NCBI GenBank assembly: GCA_028282005.1
Contig: JANQIV010000177.1
Location: 1 to 64,000, forward strand
DNA length: 64,000 nucleotides
Direction of reading: 5' to 3'
From: Melioribacteraceae bacterium
GTDB taxonomy: Bacteria > Bacteroidota > Ignavibacteria > Ignavibacteriales > Melioribacteraceae
The position numbers and the translations under genes were made by a program. Shown here piece by piece: positions 2 through 9,821 of the stretch. The first letter of the stretch is position 1. Each line of letters begins with the position of its first letter. The notes beneath the pieces were generated by a model, which saw only the letters and a list, made by a program, of their open reading frames with translations, was not told where the DNA came from and searched no databases.

Positions 2-1690
2 ATAAAATCTTATGGAGCATCTTCAGCGTTGCAGACTATTTCTGTAAACGGGCTTGGTGCGGAACACACTCTCATTTTAATGGACGGAGTGAGATTAAAC
101 TCGTTTCAAAATTCACATATCGATTTAACACTTATTCCTAAAGAGAATATTGAACGAATTGAAGTAATTAATAACGGTGTGAGTTCAATCTACGGTAGTG
201 ATGCACTGGGTGGTGTTGTAAATATAATTACCAAAAACAGAAAACTGCTTGATAAGAATTATGAAGTAGATGCGTCCTTTACAAGTGGTTCGTTTAATAC
301 TGAAAGGAAGCACATAGGTTTCTACGCACAGGCAAAGAATTTCAATTCGAAGATATATTACACGAGAGAAACATCGGACGGAGACTTTGAATATTATTTT
401 GAAAGAAATAATGAGAGAACAAAAAAGAAAAGACAGAATTCTGCTTACGAAATTTACGACGCTGGATTAAATACGCAATACATTTTTAATGAATCAAATT
501 TAATCAGGTTTATATCAAGTTACTCAGATCAAGATAAAGAAATTCCTGGGATTGCTACCGGCAGAACTCCGCCGCCGACAAAGCAGTTGGATAGAATCTG
601 GAATAATATTTTGATAGTTGAAAATAGGTTGTCGGAGAAAACAAATCTTCGCTCAAGTATTAATTATCAAAATAGTCATATGAAATATTCTGTCGAACCG
701 TTTATCGATAACTTCTTCAAGAACACTGTTTATTCGGCTTCATCCGAGTTGAAATTCAACGAAAAAGTATTTGGATTTACTGCCGGTTATAATTTCGCAC
801 ATGCTGTTATAGATGCTGACCAAGTCGAACCCGGCACAAAGAGAAACCAGCATGCGGTTTTCATCTCTTCATTTTACGACATAAACGAAAGCTTAAAAAT
901 ATTTCCGTCTGTTCGTTATGATTTTATTAGCGACGTTGAAGATGATGCTGTGACATATAAAGTAGGTTTTAATTTCCAACCTACAAAAGATTTTGATTTG
1001 AGAGTAAGAGGTAATGTTGGTAAGAACTTCAGGTCACCGTCGTTTAATGATCTTTATTGGAAAGCCGGTGGTAATAAAGATTTGAAACCTGAGAAGTCGG
1101 TTAACGCCGAAGCTGGGATACTTTATTCATTTTCATCCTTTATTAACGGACAGTTTGATTTAACGTTTACTTTTATTGAAGCCAAAGATAAAATTGTTTG
1201 GAGGCCCCAAGGTGGTATTATTTGGTCACCTATAAACGTTGCAGAATCAATTTCAAAAAATTATTCTGTGAAAATTTCTTTATCGAAAAAAATTAAAGAA
1301 GATGTTGCCCTAAATTTTAATACGGCATTTCAATTTACAAACTCTAAGAAAACAAGTCAGTCGTTTGAAGGTGATCCCACCAAAGACAAGTTTTTTCCGT
1401 TTTTACCAAAACAATCTGTAAATATAAATTTTGGTGTTAATTACAAAATCATTGAAGTAAACCTTTTCTACTCACACACTGGGCAAAGGTATTCTGACTT
1501 TGCAAACAAAGTAGACCTTTCGCCAATTAATACACTTGATGGAAATATTTCTTACTCGCTTAATCTTTTTGATGCAATTATCAAAACACGATTTGAGATA
1601 AACAATATTACAAATGCAGATTACCAAATTATAACCGGTTATCCGATGCCGCTTAGAAATTATCAATTTACAATATCGCTAACTTATTAA
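2..1690 (+). CDS. TonB-dependent receptor, BtuB-like (5' truncated by window edge)
   Basis: Outer-membrane receptor that would import a ligand such as cobalamin, using energy from TonB. The reading frame is open to the left edge, so the signal peptide, TonB box and start of the plug are missing; the first TTG at 29 is not a real start. The visible part begins inside the plug: ILMDGVRLN, then [20 protein letters not shown], the typical plug C-terminus. It continues as an alternating beta-barrel with the lipoprotein-receptor motif [12 protein letters not shown] and ends QFTISLTY with a terminal aromatic, as outer-membrane barrels do. Size and plug motifs resemble the BtuB/vitamin B12 subgroup. 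The gene is followed after 13 bases by a secreted beta-propeller, which supports a BtuB/BtuG-like unit. Substrate is inferred, not shown. Confidence 0.85.
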
Positions 1691-1703
1691 TCATGGAGAT
1701 AAA

Positions 1704-3005
1704 ATGAAAAAAATCCTTACTGTTCTATTCGTATTAATATTTACCATACAAATATCATCACAGCAATTGACTGATGTTTATGTTTTATCTGAAGGAGGCT
1801 TTAGCGCGGGGCCTGCAATGCTTTCACATTTGGATGTACAATCTTCAACATTTACCCAGGATATTTTTAACCTGGGTCTCGGTGTTTTCCCGGATGGGTT
1901 GGTTATTCATGAAGAGAACTTGTATCTAACAGAACAAGGTTCATTCGGTGGTGCTGGGAAAATTTACAAGCTTGAATTAGACGGAACTGTTATTTCATCT
2001 CAGGAAGTTGGAACTAACCCGTATTCGCTTGCAATTGCTAATGACAAAGTTTATGTAACAAATGGGCCTGCGAGCAATGTGTCTATTCTAAACTTGGCCG
2101 ATTTTAGTTTTGTTAAAGACGTTTCAGTAGGTGTTTACCCACAAGAGATTCTTGGTGTTGATAATAAAATCTTTGTTGCTAACAATAGTGCTTTCGGTGG
2201 TGACGAAGATTCAACAGTAACTGTAATTGATGCCGCAACAGATGAAGTAATAGAAACAATAAATGTTAAAAAAAATCCGTCATCATTAGCATTAACAAAT
2301 GACAATCATCTTTTAGTCGGTTGCCCCGGAGATGAAAGCGTAGGCGTTATTTATAAAGTTAATTTAACAACTTATGAAAAAGTTGATACATTTACTGTTC
2401 CGGGATTTGGTTTCGGCAAAGATCTTAGCATTGATAAAAATAGCAATAATGTTTATTTCAAAGGATCAACAAATGATATTATTGAATTGAATATGGCCAA
2501 CGACGAGGTAAAATCAGTAGTGAGTGATGCGGGAATTGCTCTAACTTACGGTTATGGTTTTGATTACTTAAATCAAAACCACTATATTTTGGATGCAAAA
2601 GATTTTGCTTCAAACGGTTCATTAACAGTTTACGCAAGTGACGGATCTTTACAAAATACATACGAAACAAGTTTTGCTCCGCGTAGAGTAGTTTTCAATT
2701 ATGGTTCAATTACCGATGTTGAAGATACAGATCTACTGCCTGCTGAATTTGCTTTACAACAAAATTATCCTAACCCGTTTAATCCTTCTACAAGTATCAG
2801 ATATCAGGTATCAACTACTGAGAATGTGCTTTTAAAAATTTACGATGCATTGGGAAGGGAAGTAACAACTTTAGTAAATGAATTACAGCCAGCAGGTGTT
2901 TATGAAGCTCGATTTGACGCATCAAATCTATCAAGTGGAATTTATTTTTACTCGTTAACTGCGGACGATTTTCACCAGATAAAGAAAATGATGTTAATTA
3001 AATAG
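1704..3005 (+). CDS. Secreted YncE-like beta-propeller protein with T9SS type-A sorting domain
   Basis: 433-residue exported protein. Residues 1-20 form a signal peptide (MKKILTVLFVLIFTIQISSQ). Residues about 25-340 are repeated propeller blades of the YncE/DUF5074 kind (NPYSLAIANDKVYVTN, YPQEILGVDNKIFVAN, NPSSLALTNDNHLLVG). From about residue 345 there is a T9SS type-A C-terminal domain: LPAEFALQQNYPNPFNPST, then LKIYDALGREV and SGIYFYSL, ending KKMMLIK. It is therefore probably cleaved and attached at the cell surface by type IX secretion. It starts 13 bases after the upstream TonB receptor with a GGAG ribosome site, so the two are co-transcribed. In Bacteroides the surface propeller BtuG captures cobalamin for BtuB; a similar role is inferred here. 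No lipobox is seen, unlike BtuG. Confidence 0.85.
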   Translation: MKKILTVLFVLIFTIQISSQQLTDVYVLSEGGFSAGPAMLSHLDVQSSTFTQDIFNLGLGVFPDGLVIHEENLYLTEQGSFGGAGKIYKLELDGTVISSQEVGTNPYSLAIANDKVYVTNGPASNVSILNLADFSFVKDVSVGVYPQEILGVDNKIFVANNSAFGGDEDSTVTVIDAATDEVIETINVKKNPSSLALTNDNHLLVGCPGDESVGVIYKVNLTTYEKVDTFTVPGFGFGKDLSIDKNSNNVYFKGSTNDIIELNMANDEVKSVVSDAGIALTYGYGFDYLNQNHYILDAKDFASNGSLTVYASDGSLQNTYETSFAPRRVVFNYGSITDVEDTDLLPAEFALQQNYPNPFNPSTSIRYQVSTTENVLLKIYDALGREVTTLVNELQPAGVYEARFDASNLSSGIYFYSLTADDFHQIKKMMLIK

Positions 3006-3091: not shown

Positions 3092-3334
3092 ATGGATGAA
3101 AATATAAAACACGAAATTAAAAACTGCCCACGCTGTGGAATTGAATTTGAATGCAAACCAGGTAACATTACCCAGTGTCAATGCTTTACTGTTCAATTGA
3201 CACTTGACGAACAAGCATATATAAAAACACAATTCGAAGATTGCTTGTGTGTTGCCTGCCTGCAAGAATTAAAAAAACTCTACCGAGAAAAGGAGGTTTT
3301 GAATTACTATTCAAAATTAAAAACAGTTGAATAA
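3092..3334 (+). CDS. Small cysteine-rich CWC family protein
   Basis: 80-residue soluble protein. It has CPRCG at residues 12-16, FEC, a CQC near residue 30, an aromatic/hydrophobic TxQLTLDEQAYI stretch and a final CLCVACL. This order of paired cysteines matches the cysteine-rich CWC family (Pfam Cys_rich_CWC). The cysteines probably bind zinc, and the family's role is unknown. No clear Shine-Dalgarno is present before the ATG, and a hairpin separates it from the upstream propeller gene. It could be a distal member of the same transcription unit. Confidence 0.75.
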   Translation: MDENIKHEIKNCPRCGIEFECKPGNITQCQCFTVQLTLDEQAYIKTQFEDCLCVACLQELKKLYREKEVLNYYSKLKTVE

Positions 3335-3514: not shown

Positions 3515-4075
3515 ATGCACACCTTTACCGGGATGTTATTTACATTTCTATTTTCACAAAACAATAAAAACAATAGACCTCCTTTGCTAAAACTGCGCTG
3601 GCCTATTATTACCAAACATTTACTGCCCGGACGTGTAAGGTTTCAAATTCCACTTATTGTTGGTAAAGAAAAAGTTTTTGGAGAATTGGCTGCCCAGCTT
3701 AAAAAGATTGACGGAATTAAAAAAGTTGATTACAGCATTATAACCGGCTCATTATTAATTCATTTTGATGAAAATATTCTGCAGGCTGATTTCTTATTTA
3801 CGATTATTATTAGGCTTTTAGGTTTTGAAAAAGAGCTTGAAAGAATTCCGTCTCCAACTATAAGTAAAGAGATTGACCGGTTTGGCAAAGCTTTAGACCA
3901 CGCGGTATTTTCTCAAACAAAAGGCCTGTTGGATTTGAAAACTCTTGTCTCTGTTTCATTGGGCTTATTTGGTATTGCTAAATTAATCTCTAAACCCCTT
4001 ACAATGCCAGCCGCTGTGACTATGATTTGGTGGTCGTATAACTCTTTAATTCAGAATAATAAGAAAGGCTCGTAA
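3515..4075 (+). CDS. HMA-like (HMA_2) domain membrane protein, first gene of the P-ATPase operon
   Basis: 186-residue protein. Residues about 33-105 form a ferredoxin-like heavy-metal-associated fold of the degenerate type: HLLPGRVRFQIP, then DGIKKVDYSIITGSLLIHFDE, with no CxxC metal motif. The C-terminal third has two hydrophobic stretches (LVSVSLGLFGIAKLI and MPAAVTMIWWSYNSLI) that would anchor it in the inner membrane. The ATG follows a good GAGGAG site. Its stop lies 2 bases before the next HMA-like gene, so it is co-translated with that gene and the P-type ATPase. Likely an accessory or regulatory subunit of the exporter; the function is inferred from context. Confidence 0.7.
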   Translation: MHTFTGMLFTFLFSQNNKNNRPPLLKLRWPIITKHLLPGRVRFQIPLIVGKEKVFGELAAQLKKIDGIKKVDYSIITGSLLIHFDENILQADFLFTIIIRLLGFEKELERIPSPTISKEIDRFGKALDHAVFSQTKGLLDLKTLVSVSLGLFGIAKLISKPLTMPAAVTMIWWSYNSLIQNNKKGS

Positions 4076-4077
4076 AT

Positions 4078-4500
4078 TTGAATCTGAAGCAAAGCTGGTT
4101 AATTATACAAATGCGGCCTAGAGTAATTCATCGTTTACCCGGTAGAATTCGTGTACATATTCCGGCGCTCAAAAAGGTTGATGATCGTTTTCAGGAAATA
4201 GTATCAGTATTACTAAAAGGATTTACTTTGCCTGAACACTTTAATCAAGTTAAGATAACTTATGCCACTGGCAGTATCTTGGTTACTTATAAGCATGATA
4301 AAATATCTGAAAGACAGATAATGAATTGGGTCTTTGACGTGAAAAATATTGCCGAATCAATTTTAATGAAATTCATAGACACAGATAATGAAAAAATTAG
4401 TAACAAAAGCATTAAACTAATTAGCTACCTGGAAAAAGCATCTAGGGAAGGACAAATTATTGATAAGAAGTTCAGGATACCTGATGAGATTTGGAGTTAA
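4078..4500 (+). CDS. Second stand-alone HMA-like (HMA_2) domain protein
   Basis: 140-residue protein, essentially one HMA-like module: VIHRLPGRIRVHIPAL at residues about 15-30 and ITYATGSILVTYKHDKIS near residues 60-75. It carries the same Arg-rich L-P-G-R-I-R signature as its neighbours and no CxxC. The TTG start has an AAAGG site at usual distance; an alternative ATG at 4111 would shorten it by 11 residues and still leave the domain whole. No membrane span is evident. It overlaps the start of the P-type ATPase gene, which implies translational coupling and a stoichiometric partnership. Function not established. Confidence 0.65.
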   Translation: MNLKQSWLIIQMRPRVIHRLPGRIRVHIPALKKVDDRFQEIVSVLLKGFTLPEHFNQVKITYATGSILVTYKHDKISERQIMNWVFDVKNIAESILMKFIDTDNEKISNKSIKLISYLEKASREGQIIDKKFRIPDEIWS

Positions 4501-6691
4501 GAAACAACCTCTTCTCTCTTGTGTTGTAATTCATTCTTTACACGGAAGGGTACGCATTCATTGCCGGGCGTTAAAATATCTGTGTGAAGTAGTAGATGAG
4601 ATTGAAGATAGAATAAATAATTTAGCAGAAATTAAATCGACAAAGATTACGGTAATTACCGGGAATGTACTTATATATTTTGATGAAGATATTACCAGTA
4701 AAGAAAATATATTAGAAAACTGTGAATCAATCATTGGATCTTATTCAAGGATAGCGTATAAAAAAGAGAAGGAGCATCATCATAAGGCTACAGTAAACGA
4801 AAGGCGACTGCAGGAAGCACCAATACCGGAAATGACCAAAAGGGTGGTGGTAGCTACAATTACGTTGGGGCTAGCTCTACTAAGACGCGGAGTTGCAAAA
4901 CCGCCAGCCTCACTCTTTGGAAAAGTGTTTAATCTTCCATTTATAACAACTCTATCAATGGCCTGGCCAATATTCAAGAGTGGGTTGGGATCTATGCTCG
5001 AAGACTTAAGGCCTAACGCGGATACTCTTACCAGCACTGCGATTTTAGCAAGCCTCGCAACCGGCAGCAGCGGTTCTGCGCTCACGATAATATGGTTGTC
5101 GGACATTGCCGAGCTAATGACTGCCTATTCAATGAACCGTACGCGAAAAGCAATTAGCGATATGCTTTCCGTGGGCGAGGAATATGTATGGAGGCTGAAC
5201 GATGATGGAAGCGAAACAAAAGTACCCCTGGATCAACTTAAAGTAGGTGATAGTATAGTTACTCAAACCGGTGAAAAAATAAGTGTTGACGGAACTATTG
5301 TAAGCGGTGAAGCTACTGTAGACCAGTCTTCAATTACCGGTGAATTTATGCCTGTTAGTAAAGCCCGTAATGACAAAGCATATGCGGGTACAGTTGTTAA
5401 AGGGGGACGCCTTGTTATTAAAGCTGAAAAGGTAGGCGACCAAACTACAGTTGCGCGTATAATTCATATGGTAGAAGAAGCATCCCATAGAAAAGCAACT
5501 ATTCAGGCTTATGCTGATAAAATTTCAGCGCAATTTATACCAGTTAATTTTTTACTGGCTCTTGTGGTTTTACTTGTAACTAAAAGGCCTTCACGTGCAT
5601 TAAGTATGTTGATTATCGACTACTCTTGCGGTGTAAGACTTTCCACAGCTACGGCGTTAGCTTCATCAATTGGATTGGCTGCCAAGAACGGCATTCTAAT
5701 TAAAGGAAGCAATTTTATCGAGATGCTTGATACCGCTGATACGCTTATACTTGATAAAACAGGAACTTTGACAAGGGGAAAACCAAAGGTAGTTAGTGTT
5801 TATTCAAATGATAAAAGAATAAGCGAACGAAAGATTGTAGAACTAGCTGCAGCTGCGGAAGAAACGTCGAACCACCCTTTGGCCCTTGCGATTTTAGATA
5901 AAGTTAAAAGCCTTGGCTGGAAAATACCAAAGCATTCCGCTACACATGTTCATTTAGCTAAGGGAATTGAAACGAAAATAAACAAAGACAAAATTAGAGT
6001 CGGCAGCCGGCGTTTTCTTGAAGAAAATAAAATTGAAACTATACATTATAAAGAAGCTGTTTCAAAGATGGTAAGGCGGGGCGAAAACATAATTTACGTT
6101 GCTAAAAATGATAAACTTATCGGGGTGCTGGGCATTCAAGATGAGTTACGCGAAAATATGAAGAAGTCTTTAAACCGCTTGCGCTTCAACGGGATGGATG
6201 ACATTATTCTCTTAACCGGTGATGTTGAACAGCACGCTGAGATTGTTGCGGGAAGAATGGCAATGGATAGTTTTCATGCGGAGTTATTACCGGAAGACAA
6301 AGCCGAAGTTGTTTTACAATTGCAATCGAAAGGCGTACATGTAGTTATGGTTGGTGACGGAATAAACGATGCCCCTGCTTTAGCTTATGCTGATGTTGGC
6401 ATTGCAATGGGCGGAACGCGCACAGATATTGCAATGGAGGCATCGGATATAACAATAACCGGTGACGATCCTCTTATGATTCCGGCAATTATCCGGTTGG
6501 CGAAAAAGACAATGAGCACCGTTCGCCAAAACTTTGCTATCTCAATTGGTGTAAACACCGTTGGCTTGCTGCTTGGAGCCATGGGAGTTATACCCGCATT
6601 CTGGGGAGCCGTTTTACATAACTCTACAACTATTGCGGTTGTATTAAACTCTGCCCGGATTTTATTGCACGATATTGAACGGGGTAAATAA
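4484..6691 (+). CDS. P1B-type heavy-metal-translocating ATPase with S-C-G in place of the CPC motif
   Basis: 735-residue inner-membrane metal pump, probably an exporter. Residues 1-80 are a third HMA-like domain (VVIHSLHGRVRIHC) without CxxC. Membrane helices follow (about 120-215). The actuator loop has T285-G-E, and the phosphorylation site is D424-K-T-G-T-L-T. The P1B signature H464-P and the hinge G-D625-G-I-N-D629-A-P are present, then two final helices. The ion-binding helix reads DYSCGVRLSTATA, with S381-C382-G383 where copper or zinc/cadmium pumps carry CPC, so the substrate is neither canonical Cu nor Zn/Cd by motif. The ATG at 4484 has AGGA upstream; a TTG at 4460, also with AAGGA, would add 8 residues. 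Embedded in an operon of HMA-like proteins. Confidence 0.93.
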   Translation: MRFGVKKQPLLSCVVIHSLHGRVRIHCRALKYLCEVVDEIEDRINNLAEIKSTKITVITGNVLIYFDEDITSKENILENCESIIGSYSRIAYKKEKEHHHKATVNERRLQEAPIPEMTKRVVVATITLGLALLRRGVAKPPASLFGKVFNLPFITTLSMAWPIFKSGLGSMLEDLRPNADTLTSTAILASLATGSSGSALTIIWLSDIAELMTAYSMNRTRKAISDMLSVGEEYVWRLNDDGSETKVPLDQLKVGDSIVTQTGEKISVDGTIVSGEATVDQSSITGEFMPVSKARNDKAYAGTVVKGGRLVIKAEKVGDQTTVARIIHMVEEASHRKATIQAYADKISAQFIPVNFLLALVVLLVTKRPSRALSMLIIDYSCGVRLSTATALASSIGLAAKNGILIKGSNFIEMLDTADTLILDKTGTLTRGKPKVVSVYSNDKRISERKIVELAAAAEETSNHPLALAILDKVKSLGWKIPKHSATHVHLAKGIETKINKDKIRVGSRRFLEENKIETIHYKEAVSKMVRRGENIIYVAKNDKLIGVLGIQDELRENMKKSLNRLRFNGMDDIILLTGDVEQHAEIVAGRMAMDSFHAELLPEDKAEVVLQLQSKGVHVVMVGDGINDAPALAYADVGIAMGGTRTDIAMEASDITITGDDPLMIPAIIRLAKKTMSTVRQNFAISIGVNTVGLLLGAMGVIPAFWGAVLHNSTTIAVVLNSARILLHDIERGK

Positions 6692-7552
6692 ATGAGAGAC
6701 AACAAGCATATCATCATAAGAATTATTCACACTCTTAAAGGCAGAGTTAGGCTGCGCGTTAATATAAGTCCTAAATCCTCTGAGGAAATGATTGATACAG
6801 TGAAAAGTCATCCTGGTATTTATGAAATTAATTTTAACAAGCATACTAAATCTGTTTTAATAAAATTTGACCCTGCTGAGACCAGCCAGGAAGAACTCAT
6901 TATCCGTGTAGCGGTCTTTATTTCTCTGGAAAACGGATTGATACCGGCAAGGGTATATTCTGATATTAAAGATCTGGAAATGTCTGATTCAGCTTTTTTA
7001 TCAGGCTTCTTAATTTTTGTTTCTCTTTTTAGCCGGATAATACCGGGAGCAGCCGGTTTTAGAAATGCTCTTGATTGGATAGCAGGATTAGGGACTGCAT
7101 ATTCTATCATCGATCACGGATACGATGAGTATAAAGAGAGAGGAAATTTTGATCCCGAAGTTCTTTCTGTTATTTATCTGCTTACTTCGTTCTCCCAAGG
7201 AAAGTTTTTACCTTCAACCTTGTTTACATGGATTGCGTCATTCGGCCGTCATTTGGTTCGATATTCTTCTAAAAATGTTGAGATCAAACCAATACGGGTA
7301 AGTTCATCTTCAAAGGATAAACCTCAATACGAGGTAGTTGTTACTCCGATCAATCACTTGCCCGGTAAAAAGATGTTATTTAACTTTTTACCTAAATTAA
7401 TTATGAATGCAGCGCTTGTTAATCGGGGTAATATTGAAGGAACATTAATCGATGAAATAAGGAAAGTATCTTCAGACCACGGCGAAGTACTGGAAGGTTT
7501 TGGAAAATTTAATAATGGTATACCAATAAGATTACTTGATAATAAAAATTGA
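6692..7552 (+). CDS. HMA-like domain membrane protein, 3' partner of the P-type ATPase
   Basis: 286-residue protein whose ATG directly follows the ATPase stop codon. The N-terminus is a fourth HMA-like module (RIIHTLKGRVRLRVNIS, then FNKHTKSVLIKFDPAE). A hydrophobic middle follows: SAFLSGFLIFVSLFSRIIPGA, NALDWIAGLGTAYSII and VLSVIYLLTSFSQG. The last 90 residues are soluble (VVVTPINHLPGKKMLFNFLP) with no family I can name. It resembles the membrane-region organisation of the ATPase without its catalytic loops, so it may dimerise with or scaffold the pump. No metal-binding CxxC is present. Role inferred from strict co-transcription. Confidence 0.65.
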   Translation: MRDNKHIIIRIIHTLKGRVRLRVNISPKSSEEMIDTVKSHPGIYEINFNKHTKSVLIKFDPAETSQEELIIRVAVFISLENGLIPARVYSDIKDLEMSDSAFLSGFLIFVSLFSRIIPGAAGFRNALDWIAGLGTAYSIIDHGYDEYKERGNFDPEVLSVIYLLTSFSQGKFLPSTLFTWIASFGRHLVRYSSKNVEIKPIRVSSSSKDKPQYEVVVTPINHLPGKKMLFNFLPKLIMNAALVNRGNIEGTLIDEIRKVSSDHGEVLEGFGKFNNGIPIRLLDNKN

Positions 7553-7585
7553 TAAATAAAAAATATAAATAGGGGAAATTAAAAA

Positions 7586-7846
7586 ATGAATATCACTTCT
7601 CAACATGTTAGTGGTTTTGTTGTCGGCGTTGGAGCGGCTGCGGCAGCATATTATTTTTATAAAAAGAATCAGCCTGAGGTTGATGACTTTTTAAGAAGAC
7701 AAGGAATACAATTGCCTGAAACATCGGTTAAAGAATACAGCTCTATGACGCTTGAAGAAATGGTTGCTGAAAAGGAACATCTTGAAGATTTAATTGCTGA
7801 ACGTGAAATGGGTGAAAGCCAGGAAAGCAATAACGGTAATAAATAG
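7586..7846 (+). CDS. Small single-TM protein with charged tail, PacL-like partner candidate
   Basis: 86-residue protein. A glycine/alanine-rich N-terminal membrane segment (GFVVGVGAAAAAYYFY, residues about 10-25) is followed by KKNQPEVDDFLRRQG and an acidic amphipathic C-terminal helix (LEEMVAEKEHLEDLIAERE). A good AGGGGAAA site lies upstream, 33 bases after the HMA-like membrane gene. Small one-TM proteins with charged, metal-binding tails (PacL, DUF1490) organise the CtpC/CtpG/CtpV P-ATPases of mycobacteria into efflux platforms. The architecture and operon position here are similar, but sequence homology is not claimed. Confidence 0.6.
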   Translation: MNITSQHVSGFVVGVGAAAAAYYFYKKNQPEVDDFLRRQGIQLPETSVKEYSSMTLEEMVAEKEHLEDLIAEREMGESQESNNGNK

Positions 7847-7927
7847 TTTTGTTTGTTATTCCAACTCAAAAAGCTGTCGACGGCTATTTATTCTTTTCTA
7901 ATGTTATTAATTATTACTTTCAATTTG

Positions 7928-7967: not shown

Positions 7968-9821
7968 TTAATTATATCTTACACTAAATCTGATCACTCG
8001 TCCCGGCTCAAAAACTCTTATGCCTGAGGCAAATGGATCTCTGCGATACGACAAATGCTGATAGTACAGTTCGTTTGTTACATTCTCAATTTCTAAAGCA
8101 AATCTCATATCGTTGTACAAATATGAAATTCCCAGATCTACTTTATTCCAGGCCGGTGTTGAAGTTTCATCAACATTTAAATCCACTCTTGTTTGTGCAT
8201 CAGAATAAGTGTGTTTTAGGAATCCGGTAAAGCCATTAAATTCAGGCGACTTTAAAGTAGTAGTAACTTGAAGCGGCGGTATTTCTGACAAAGGACTATC
8301 GTCGGTTGTGTTTTCGGCAAAAGTGTATGAAGCATTTACTTCAGTAAATTTATAACTACCGTTCAAATTGAATCCGAACATATTTGCATTAACATTTTTA
8401 TAAGTTAGGTAAGGCTTATTACCAACTGCAGCTCTCGAAAAATTCACATAATTCCAGACATTAGTTCCATAAACTTCCAATCGAATTTTATTGTAATTAA
8501 GTGATCCCCTCAAAGTAGCTCTGATTGGCTGATCCAAAGTAGGGTTGCCTGACCAATTTGGCTTTTGCATTGGTTTATTTACATTGATATAAAGAGCATC
8601 AATATCGGGTGCTTCCGAAGCTGCTTCGAGCATAACACCCGTTCCCCAGTTATTATTTAGTGCTTTTGTGTAACTTGCAGCAACTCCGAATGTCGGAAAT
8701 ATTCTATTCTTTTTTGCATCAGCGTATAAGTTTTTATGAAAATCAAGTCTGTTATCGTCATTTAAAAAGCTTCCAACTACTCCTACTTTTGATGAGACGT
8801 AAATACTTCCAAAGTCCCATTTTTTTTGAACTGCTGCGGAAAGTAGTTGCACATCTACAAAGCCTTCATTTGACATTGACATATTCGGCATTACCATTCT
8901 GTTATCCGCTTGCCAGTCTCTAAAGAAAAGTTCATAAAATTCACCAACCAAGCCGAGTGTAAGATTTTTTGTTCGCGCATTCATATTCATCATGCTGTTG
9001 CGGAATGAGTTATCCATGTTGTGGTCGGTGTAATTAAAATATAGTTTATTGTTACTGTAACTTAAATGCCCGCTGTAAATTCGTGTCGCTCTTTCGTCCA
9101 TTAGTAAGTACGGGAAAGAGATATCATCAGAATAAGTAAATGCGGCACCATACTTAAGTTTGCCCTGCTTGCCGTTAAATGATACTTCGCCAAGCGTGAA
9201 GTTTTTTATTTCTTTATAATTATAATTGTCTTTGAATGATCTCCCTTCTGCGTCGTCATAAGGTTTACCTGTAGCGTATCGCAAAGTAACTCTGTGATCG
9301 TATGCCTCGACTAATATAGCGCCGTCAAAGTATTGCGACGCATCGGCTGAGCCACTTAAGCCGGTTTTTACTTTTAAAGGTGAACCGATATCAGATCGGT
9401 TAAAAGCAACAACGCCGGCTAGCCCACTCTGGAGAGAACCTGATGTTTTCATTAAATCTACTCTGTCGAGCTCAATTGGATTTACTCTTGTTAGCGGAGA
9501 GTCCATTCTGTTTGGGCAAGCACTGTGATATCGTTCGCCATCGATTACAACATTTATATCACTTTTCTTAAATCCATCTGAATAGATATCCTGTGCAAAG
9601 AAAACACCCTTTCTAATAAGGGTGAAACCGTTTTTATTTAATACTGATGATAATCTATCTTTTTCAATTGGTAATGCTTCATCACCATGAATTGATCTGT
9701 TTGAAGTAATTTCAACCGGATTTAGCCAATAAACTCTAACACTGTCTTCATCTTGAGATTTAATTTCCGGGCACAGAAATAGTAGTACAAAAAGGAATAT
9801 TAGTCCCTTGAGATTTTTCAT
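7968..9821 (-). CDS. TonB-dependent copper receptor, OprC/NosA-like
   Basis: 617-residue outer-membrane receptor with a signal peptide (MKNLKGLIFLFVLLFLCPEIKSQ). The plug carries VVIDGERYHSACPNRMDSPL, giving a C102-x3-M106 motif. An extracellular barrel segment carries NYTDHNMDNS, giving H267-x-M269. These two pieces reproduce the CxxxM...HxM copper-binding site described for Pseudomonas OprC. Further Met-rich loops follow (NSMMNMNA, MVMPNMSMS). The plug end (SGLAGVVAF) and the barrel end (VIRFSVRYN) are normal. It lies 36 bases after a small Cys-rich envelope gene on the same strand. Role: high-affinity copper uptake across the outer membrane; substrate inferred from the motif. Confidence 0.9.
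   Translation of the reverse strand: MKNLKGLIFLFVLLFLCPEIKSQDEDSVRVYWLNPVEITSNRSIHGDEALPIEKDRLSSVLNKNGFTLIRKGVFFAQDIYSDGFKKSDINVVIDGERYHSACPNRMDSPLTRVNPIELDRVDLMKTSGSLQSGLAGVVAFNRSDIGSPLKVKTGLSGSADASQYFDGAILVEAYDHRVTLRYATGKPYDDAEGRSFKDNYNYKEIKNFTLGEVSFNGKQGKLKYGAAFTYSDDISFPYLLMDERATRIYSGHLSYSNNKLYFNYTDHNMDNSFRNSMMNMNARTKNLTLGLVGEFYELFFRDWQADNRMVMPNMSMSNEGFVDVQLLSAAVQKKWDFGSIYVSSKVGVVGSFLNDDNRLDFHKNLYADAKKNRIFPTFGVAASYTKALNNNWGTGVMLEAASEAPDIDALYINVNKPMQKPNWSGNPTLDQPIRATLRGSLNYNKIRLEVYGTNVWNYVNFSRAAVGNKPYLTYKNVNANMFGFNLNGSYKFTEVNASYTFAENTTDDSPLSEIPPLQVTTTLKSPEFNGFTGFLKHTYSDAQTRVDLNVDETSTPAWNKVDLGISYLYNDMRFALEIENVTNELYYQHLSYRRDPFASGIRVFEPGRVIRFSVRYN

Follow-up and report, generated by a model that had tools for sequence, protein, structure and literature searches.

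Few organisms are known to form ferrosomes. FezB belongs to the P1B-6 ATPases, and Shewanella putrefaciens carries a six-gene fez operon. Six fez genes (RPA2333-2338) are reported for Rhodopseudomonas palustris (PMC12016538) and only fezXAB for C. difficile (PMC11533511). In mycobacteria, PacL1, a one-helix protein whose operon also encodes a P1B6-like pump, is described as clustering that pump (PMC9374683, PMC13043812), and a conserved Gly pair in its helix as required for this clustering (PMC13043812). Here, a 64,000-nucleotide stretch of a contig from a Melioribacteraceae bacterium (hereafter, the window) was analysed, in which five plus-strand genes are packed almost without gaps at positions 3515-7846. 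In this order, they encode proteins A and B, a P1B ATPase (the pump), and proteins D and S.

We consider it fairly probable that these genes form a ferrosome-type iron-loading operon of a third gene architecture and not a classical efflux operon. Favouring this reading are the presence of the five-gene set in many phyla and its absence from control loci, the P1B-6-like motifs of the pump, neighbouring genes of the DtxR-type/FeoA, FeoB, FecCD, and Nramp families, a pump clade that is sister to the pumps of fez-like operons, and the pump-like fold and invariant His pair of D, next to the description of FezC as a DUF4405-related heme cytochrome (PMC11334425).

The original prediction had described a metal-efflux operon in which four successive genes each carry one HMA-like module without CxxC, one of them fused to the ATPase. 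The four motifs that it quoted (HLLPGRVRF, HRLPGRIRV, HSLHGRVRI, and HTLKGRVRL) were all present in the open reading frames (ORFs) at this place, and S (7586-7846) was identified as a fifth part of the set, beyond the four modules first noticed. The following features were assigned:

3515..4075, plus strand: gene A, 186 aa; HMA_2 module, then C-terminal membrane helices
3629..3640, plus strand: GRxR motif of A, with conserved Arg40/Arg42
4078..4500, plus strand: gene B, 140 aa; HMA_2 module with a short tail; begins at a TTG in the ORF list, but may start later
4484..6691, plus strand: pump gene, 735 aa counted from ATG 4484 in a frame that is open from TTG 4460; HMA_2 module and P1B ATPase
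5621..5632, plus strand: pump motif YSCG in transmembrane helix 4 (TM4), replacing CPCA
6614..6625, plus strand: pump motif LHNS (HN) in transmembrane helix 6 (TM6)
6692..7552, plus strand: gene D, 286 aa; HMA fold, pump-like N-terminal membrane helices, C-terminal extension
7115..7117, plus strand: His142 of D
7247..7252, plus strand: Arg186-His187 of D
7586..7846, plus strand: gene S, 86 aa; Gly-rich N-terminal helix and acidic motif KExxEDLIAE
7872..7885, plus strand: terminator-like stem with T-rich tail 3' of S, a possible operon end found by consensus scan only

The pump ORF overlaps gene B (pump ATG at 4484; B extends to 4500), and D starts at the base immediately after the pump stop codon. 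A search of the window against Rfam gave no match.

Conservation of the five-gene set

A contig scan with TM4 alignment yielded 80 loci, of which 56 (L040-L095) had a pump of this type and the other 24 (L096-L119) were off-target P1B-1 loci that served as controls. This survey is biased, as loci were chosen by pump TM4 patterns; it includes near-copies (L055 and L078 are identical, several Lentisphaeria loci nearly so), and L039 was excluded from the protein sets. Upstream of the pump, two HMA_2 genes were found in 42/47 pump loci with an upstream flank and one in the other 5/47. Among the 51 loci with a downstream flank, 41 had one downstream HMA_2 gene, two had two, and eight had none, and all 51 had an S homologue. 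The complete A-B-pump-D-S set was present in 29 of the 41 loci with both flanks, and 0/24 control loci carried any member of it. By record title, carriers belonged to the Bacillota, Fusobacteriota, Bacteroidota, Spirochaetota, Planctomycetota, Lentisphaerota, Thermodesulfobacteriota, Myxococcota, Chloroflexota, and KSB1, many of them being metagenome bins. The neighbourhood is conserved in relatives, across phyla; the original prediction would have been refuted had it not been. A plasmid search with the pump revealed an equal layout in Priestia megaterium, annotated as 'HMA2 domain-containing protein', and, without annotation, in a Fusobacterium vincentii record. An earlier genome scan with protein A alone gave 166 pattern matches, among which no relative was confirmed.

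Directly 3' of S, two loci have an additional HMA_2 gene (L058:5087-5563; L077:8310-8684); the L058 product terminates in hydrophobic, His-containing helices and so has a FezC-like layout. The identical pumps of L055 and L078 occur in bins labelled Anaerolineae and Alphaproteobacteria, which indicates a foreign contig in at least one of these bins. HMA_2 modules also head open frames of ~1000-1080 aa that lie close to small HMA_2 proteins (e.g., G1013, G1147, G1209), apparently another HMA_2 pump system in Desulfobacterota.

In a tree of 32 pumps, the 19 five-gene pumps formed one clade (support 99). Its sister clade (99) comprised pumps of two kinds of fez-resembling operons: six-gene, Pseudomonadota-type sets that each encode a single pump and two HMA_2 proteins (L142-L144, from the phylum group of an Alphaproteobacteria-labelled bin), and loci from Peptostreptococcaceae-group genomes (~4.1-4.8 Mb) in which a DUF6110 gene adjoins a CxxC-less, HMA_2-headed P1B6 pump. 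The former recall the six fez genes of R. palustris, the latter fezXAB of C. difficile. A DUF1490-linked pump and the P1B-1 controls fell outside both clades. This was a quick tree with long branches (L180, L038), and L038 fell among the control outgroup, so that the outgroup did not lie on one side of any branch. On account of the sister clades, the operon is best described as a close cousin of the fez-resembling operons with a gene set of its own. The six-gene operons of L142 and L144 also encode a long protein that is rich in His, Pro, Gln, and Met and has a Gly-Ala helix; its L142 copy had no Pfam match above cut-off.

Modules, pump, and proteins D and S

HMA_2 (PF19991) scored above the Pfam gathering cut-off of 30 bits in A (153.2 bits, E 6.6e-45; match spanning 10-153 of 154), B (38.2 bits, E 1.8e-9), pump (39.8 bits, E 5.7e-10), and D (32.4 bits, E 1.1e-7), in agreement with the predicted four modules, and a genome-wide search (4.09 Mb, listed as 98.9% complete) located HMA_2 at exactly these four places. 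The HMA parts of the set aligned with each other at 99.3-99.7% HHalign probability. A, B, and D share the N-terminal HMA-like fold of the pump, and the profile search did not assign the small proteins to unrelated folds. An AlphaFold2 (AF2) model of A had a predicted local distance difference test (pLDDT) of 86.3 and a predicted template modelling score (pTM) of 0.57. That the membrane part of A is a copy of pump sequence was considered and not supported (HHalign probability 0.1%).

No Cys pair was found across the 204 modules scanned in the window and its relatives: CxxC occurred in 0/52 A, 0/48 B, 0/51 D, and 0/53 pump modules. The best match to classical HMA (PF00403) was one of 13.1 bits in D, versus a cut-off of 24.8. 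Absence of CxxC is the norm of the HMA_2 family and not a peculiarity of this genome; efflux with thiol chaperones was rejected, as none of the modules has CxxC. The Arg residues of GRxR were conserved in A (Arg40 98%, Arg42 100%; n=52), B (Arg23 91%, Arg25 95%; n=48), and D (Arg18 98%, Arg20 100%; n=51, including a fragment, L050, and the extra C-terminal genes of L058 and L077). Two roles had been proposed for these Arg-rich modules. A structural or oligomerising role provides the best reading, whereas a non-thiol ligand set was not found in the HMA modules, whose conserved residues were GRxR together with structural Gly, Pro, and hydrophobic residues. Conserved candidate ligands were located outside the modules, as a His pair in the membrane part of D and an acidic motif in S.

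A TM4 without CPC counts as a mark of P1B-6 pumps. The pump of the window matched the P1B ATPase family TIGR01525 (568.5 bits) and also scored above the cut-off of the Cd subfamily (TIGR01512, 407.8 bits). Its TM4 motif, YSCG, was shared by 47/53 relatives, others having xCG or SCA, and CPCA was present in 21/21 control pumps. In TM6, the pump has LHNS; HN was found in 53/53 relatives and in 0/21 full-length control pumps, and is given as a hallmark of P1B-6 (Boudehen et al., 2022; PMC9374683). By these motifs, HN in TM6 and a TM4 without CPC, the pump is P1B-6-like.

The AF2 model of D (pLDDT 87.7, pTM 0.80), like that of A a single-chain prediction, was compared with known structures. With VIA-align, residues 95-190 of D were superposed onto residues 41-137 of a Cd P-ATPase (7qbz; Z 9.0, root-mean-square deviation 3.8, 94 aligned) and also matched ATP7B (Z 7.0), and residues 16-89 matched CopZ-like chains (Z about 6); Foldseek alone returned no match for the D model at E<=0.001. 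The membrane part of D aligned with that of the pump (HHalign probability 89.5%, P 2e-6, 91 columns), versus a maximum of 0.8% in three column shuffles. Judged from these profile alignments and models, D is a detached copy of the N-terminal third of the pump, consisting of the HMA fold and the first membrane helices. D as a DUF4405 cytochrome was rejected: it gave no match at E<=1, and its helices match the P-ATPase instead.

His142, Trp180, Arg186, and His187 were invariant in 42/42 D proteins of at least 225 aa. At the pump positions aligned to the His pair, none of 53 pumps has His; the residue opposite His142 is Ser or Asn in most pumps, and pump Glu210 (52/53) occupies the position of Arg186. 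The short, Priestia-type D has kept His142 but does not have Arg-His. Because the pump region matched by the His pair (the MB kink and M2) forms the metal entry platform of P1B pumps, D is a candidate entry-site mimic that could bind iron or heme, a heme role being possible in view of the His pair. Eight Lentisphaeria-type loci (L086-L093) lack D and have kept A, B, pump, and S, and thereby offer a natural test of its role.

These pumps are accompanied by S, a protein with a single helix. Its family (n=55) has G10xxxG14 in the single N-terminal helix and a motif E57-L59-K63-E64-E67-D68-I70-A71-E72. Neither Pfam nor NCBIfam contained a family above cut-off for S. No profile match to DUF1490 (PF07371) was found, an HHalign comparison giving P 0.23, and DUF6110 (PF19605) neither matched S of the window nor was one of the 25 families displayed for a set of 46 S members. 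In direct comparison, S and DUF6110 gave P 0.0074, their EDxxAE motifs being in register, and DUF6110 and DUF1490 gave P 0.009. At the level of sequence profiles, the likeness of S to DUF6110 is suggestive, short of proof. S as a PacL (DUF1490) homologue was set aside: that relation was undetectable, the in-register motif likeness being to DUF6110 only.

Neighbouring genes and origin

After removal of seven near-duplicate loci, clustering of flank proteins showed that a single neighbour recurred far more than any other: a DtxR-family gene on the same strand, adjoining the operon on its 5' or 3' side in 12/52 loci. Five of these genes were checked against Pfam; all five encode an iron-dependent repressor dimerisation domain, and two of the five have FeoA domains above cut-off. 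Single neighbours, identified in a Pfam scan that covered 68/85 upstream and 72/84 downstream proteins, included members of the FeoB, FecCD, Nramp, and ABC-3 families. Iron is favoured as the metal, with manganese being possible.

Small proteins near three Desulfobacterales operons weakly match DUF4405 (L044:2137-2397, minus strand, E 3e-4; L045:2780-3040, minus strand, E 0.04; L047:2806-3012, minus strand, E 0.07). In the window itself, positions 3092-3334, just 5' of the operon, encode an 80-aa Cys-rich CWC protein (PF14375, 47.8 bits) that is metal-binding by look. A TonB-dependent receptor gene (7968-9821, minus strand), convergent with the operon, weakly matches the copper receptor TIGR01778 (81.7 bits, cut-off 472), and positions 29-3005 encode a TonB-dependent receptor and, after it, a DUF5074/beta-propeller protein bearing a type IX secretion tail, which together look like an outer-membrane uptake pair.

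The operon was probably gained horizontally. In searches of relatives at family and order level (n=58, own genome included), only the own genome was above cut-off, and 2/395 genomes of a phylum-level draw were. Its guanine-plus-cytosine content was 38.2%, versus 33.0% for the rest of the window, with a deviating tetranucleotide profile. The pump groups with those of sediment Planctomycetota, Desulfobacterota, and Myxococcota, and not with the Bacteroidales clade.

Interpretation and comparison with known systems

Of the initial description, 'metal efflux' fits the observations least, in view of the P1B-6-like pump, the iron-dependent repressor as neighbour, and the sister pumps in fez-like operons. 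On the favoured reading, a P1B-6-type pump instead operates inside a membrane complex assembled from separate copies of the pump's front end. HMA modules would touch one another through the invariant GRxR edge, and these contacts and the Gly-rich S helix would bring many pumps together in a patch or vesicle membrane, across which the pump would carry ferrous iron from the cytosol into a lumen for storage. D, which has lost the conserved Glu of the pump and gained the invariant His pair, may bind iron or heme at the membrane and, by analogy with the cytochrome FezC, could feed or redox-control the pump. A wider proposal is possible, though less likely than not: that these loci represent a widespread class of iron-storage organelles built from 'headless pumps', in which freed N-terminal pump modules act as shell or scaffold, D has become a subunit that holds iron or heme with its His pair, and one family of one-helix organisers, shared by ferrosomes and effluxosomes, comprises S, FezA/DUF6110, and PacL.

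Several observations weigh against a ferrosome-type operon. DtxR-family repressors also sense Mn, no regulator adjoins the operon in the window, and the two DtxR-type genes of the genome are on another contig. Fur-like boxes (p<=0.05, from shuffles that preserved base composition only) were found in 5/53 upstream regions versus 1/53 control regions, with none in the window. Ferritins are already encoded in this genome. The clade of the five-gene pumps is a separate one, not nested among fez-like pumps, and DUF4405, the FezC-like domain, was found beside the operon in 1/50 genomes, below cut-off. Finally, fez likeness was judged from published descriptions, so that the fez membership of the operon is putative, and both metal and organelle are predictions.

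The strongest alternative, though unlikely, is a plasma-membrane efflux platform like mycobacterial PacL-CtpC, in which S would cluster and stabilise the pump, the HMA_2 proteins would be extra subunits, and Zn, Mn, Cd, or Fe would be expelled without involvement of an organelle. With the PacL1 operon as precedent, this explanation draws on the PacL1-like layout of S and its weakly similar acidic motif, as seen in the S-DUF6110 and DUF6110-DUF1490 comparisons, and on the score of the pump for the Cd subfamily. However, direct comparison of S with DUF1490 was not significant, the His-rich metal-binding tail of PacL1 is absent from S, and the pump, which has no CPC, groups with fez-like pumps over the DUF1490-linked pump (support 89); moreover, the operon neighbours point to iron. 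It is improbable that the HMA_2 modules are true metal chaperones that pass metal to the pump by means of non-Cys ligands. Their fold, which is that of HMA chaperones as judged by the CopZ-like matches, and their operon linkage would suit such a role, but besides the missing Cys pairs they have no repeated His/Asp/Glu set at the metal loop, their conserved residues being GRxR and structural ones, and Arg is an improbable metal ligand. That the repeated modules are a by-product of gene duplication without joint function is scarcely credible, since, although single parts are dispensable (one upstream module is absent in 5/47 loci and D in 8/51), set and order are kept across phyla, S is never absent where testable, and A, B, and D retain distinct lengths, tails, and invariant residues.

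If the operon is of the ferrosome type, iron organelles are expected in Fusobacterium, Leptotrichia, Peptostreptococcus, Christensenella, Desulfosporosinus, and on Priestia plasmids, as well as in many sediment and rumen lineages. A large family of proteins annotated as HMA2 would then no longer bear the automatic label 'heavy metal efflux', and duplicated pump front ends serving as scaffold provide a testable idea of how a pump changes into a compartment.

In the titles and opening abstract lines of the literature covered, neither the five-gene set nor the pump origin of D was described; the main fez papers (Grant 2022; Pi 2023) lie outside this coverage and may show such clusters. The nearest counterparts of the operon, by published description, are fezABC of Desulfovibrio magneticus, the six-gene operons of R. 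palustris and S. putrefaciens, and C. difficile fezXAB. It shares with these fez operons a P1B-6-type pump encoded with small membrane proteins, iron-type regulators nearby, and a distribution among anaerobes, and the fez look-alike operons also have a CxxC-less, HMA_2-like pump head. Unlike fez operons, it has the gene set A-B-pump-D-S, a pump in the sister clade, and, in D, a pump-derived His-pair protein; most loci are without an adjacent DUF4405/FezC gene, and there is no DUF6110 gene.

With the PacL1-CtpC effluxosome, the operon has in common a one-helix small protein encoded with an HN-motif pump that has a CxxC-less, HMA_2-like head. CtpC-type pumps, however, have CPC in TM4 and PacL has its His-rich tail, neither of which is found in the five-gene set, and the DUF1490-linked pump (L037), with GRIR and HN, has no HMA_2 partner genes. 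DUF6110 PacL-like proteins resemble S in their Gly-rich N-terminal helix and equally spaced EDxxAE helix motif, and likewise adjoin P1B6 pumps. The Priestia megaterium plasmids (NZ_CP140271, NC_004604) share the order HMA2, HMA2, pump, HMA2, small protein, but differ from the operon of the window in that their pump is 39-41% identical, the length order of the upstream modules is reversed, and D is short and without Arg-His.

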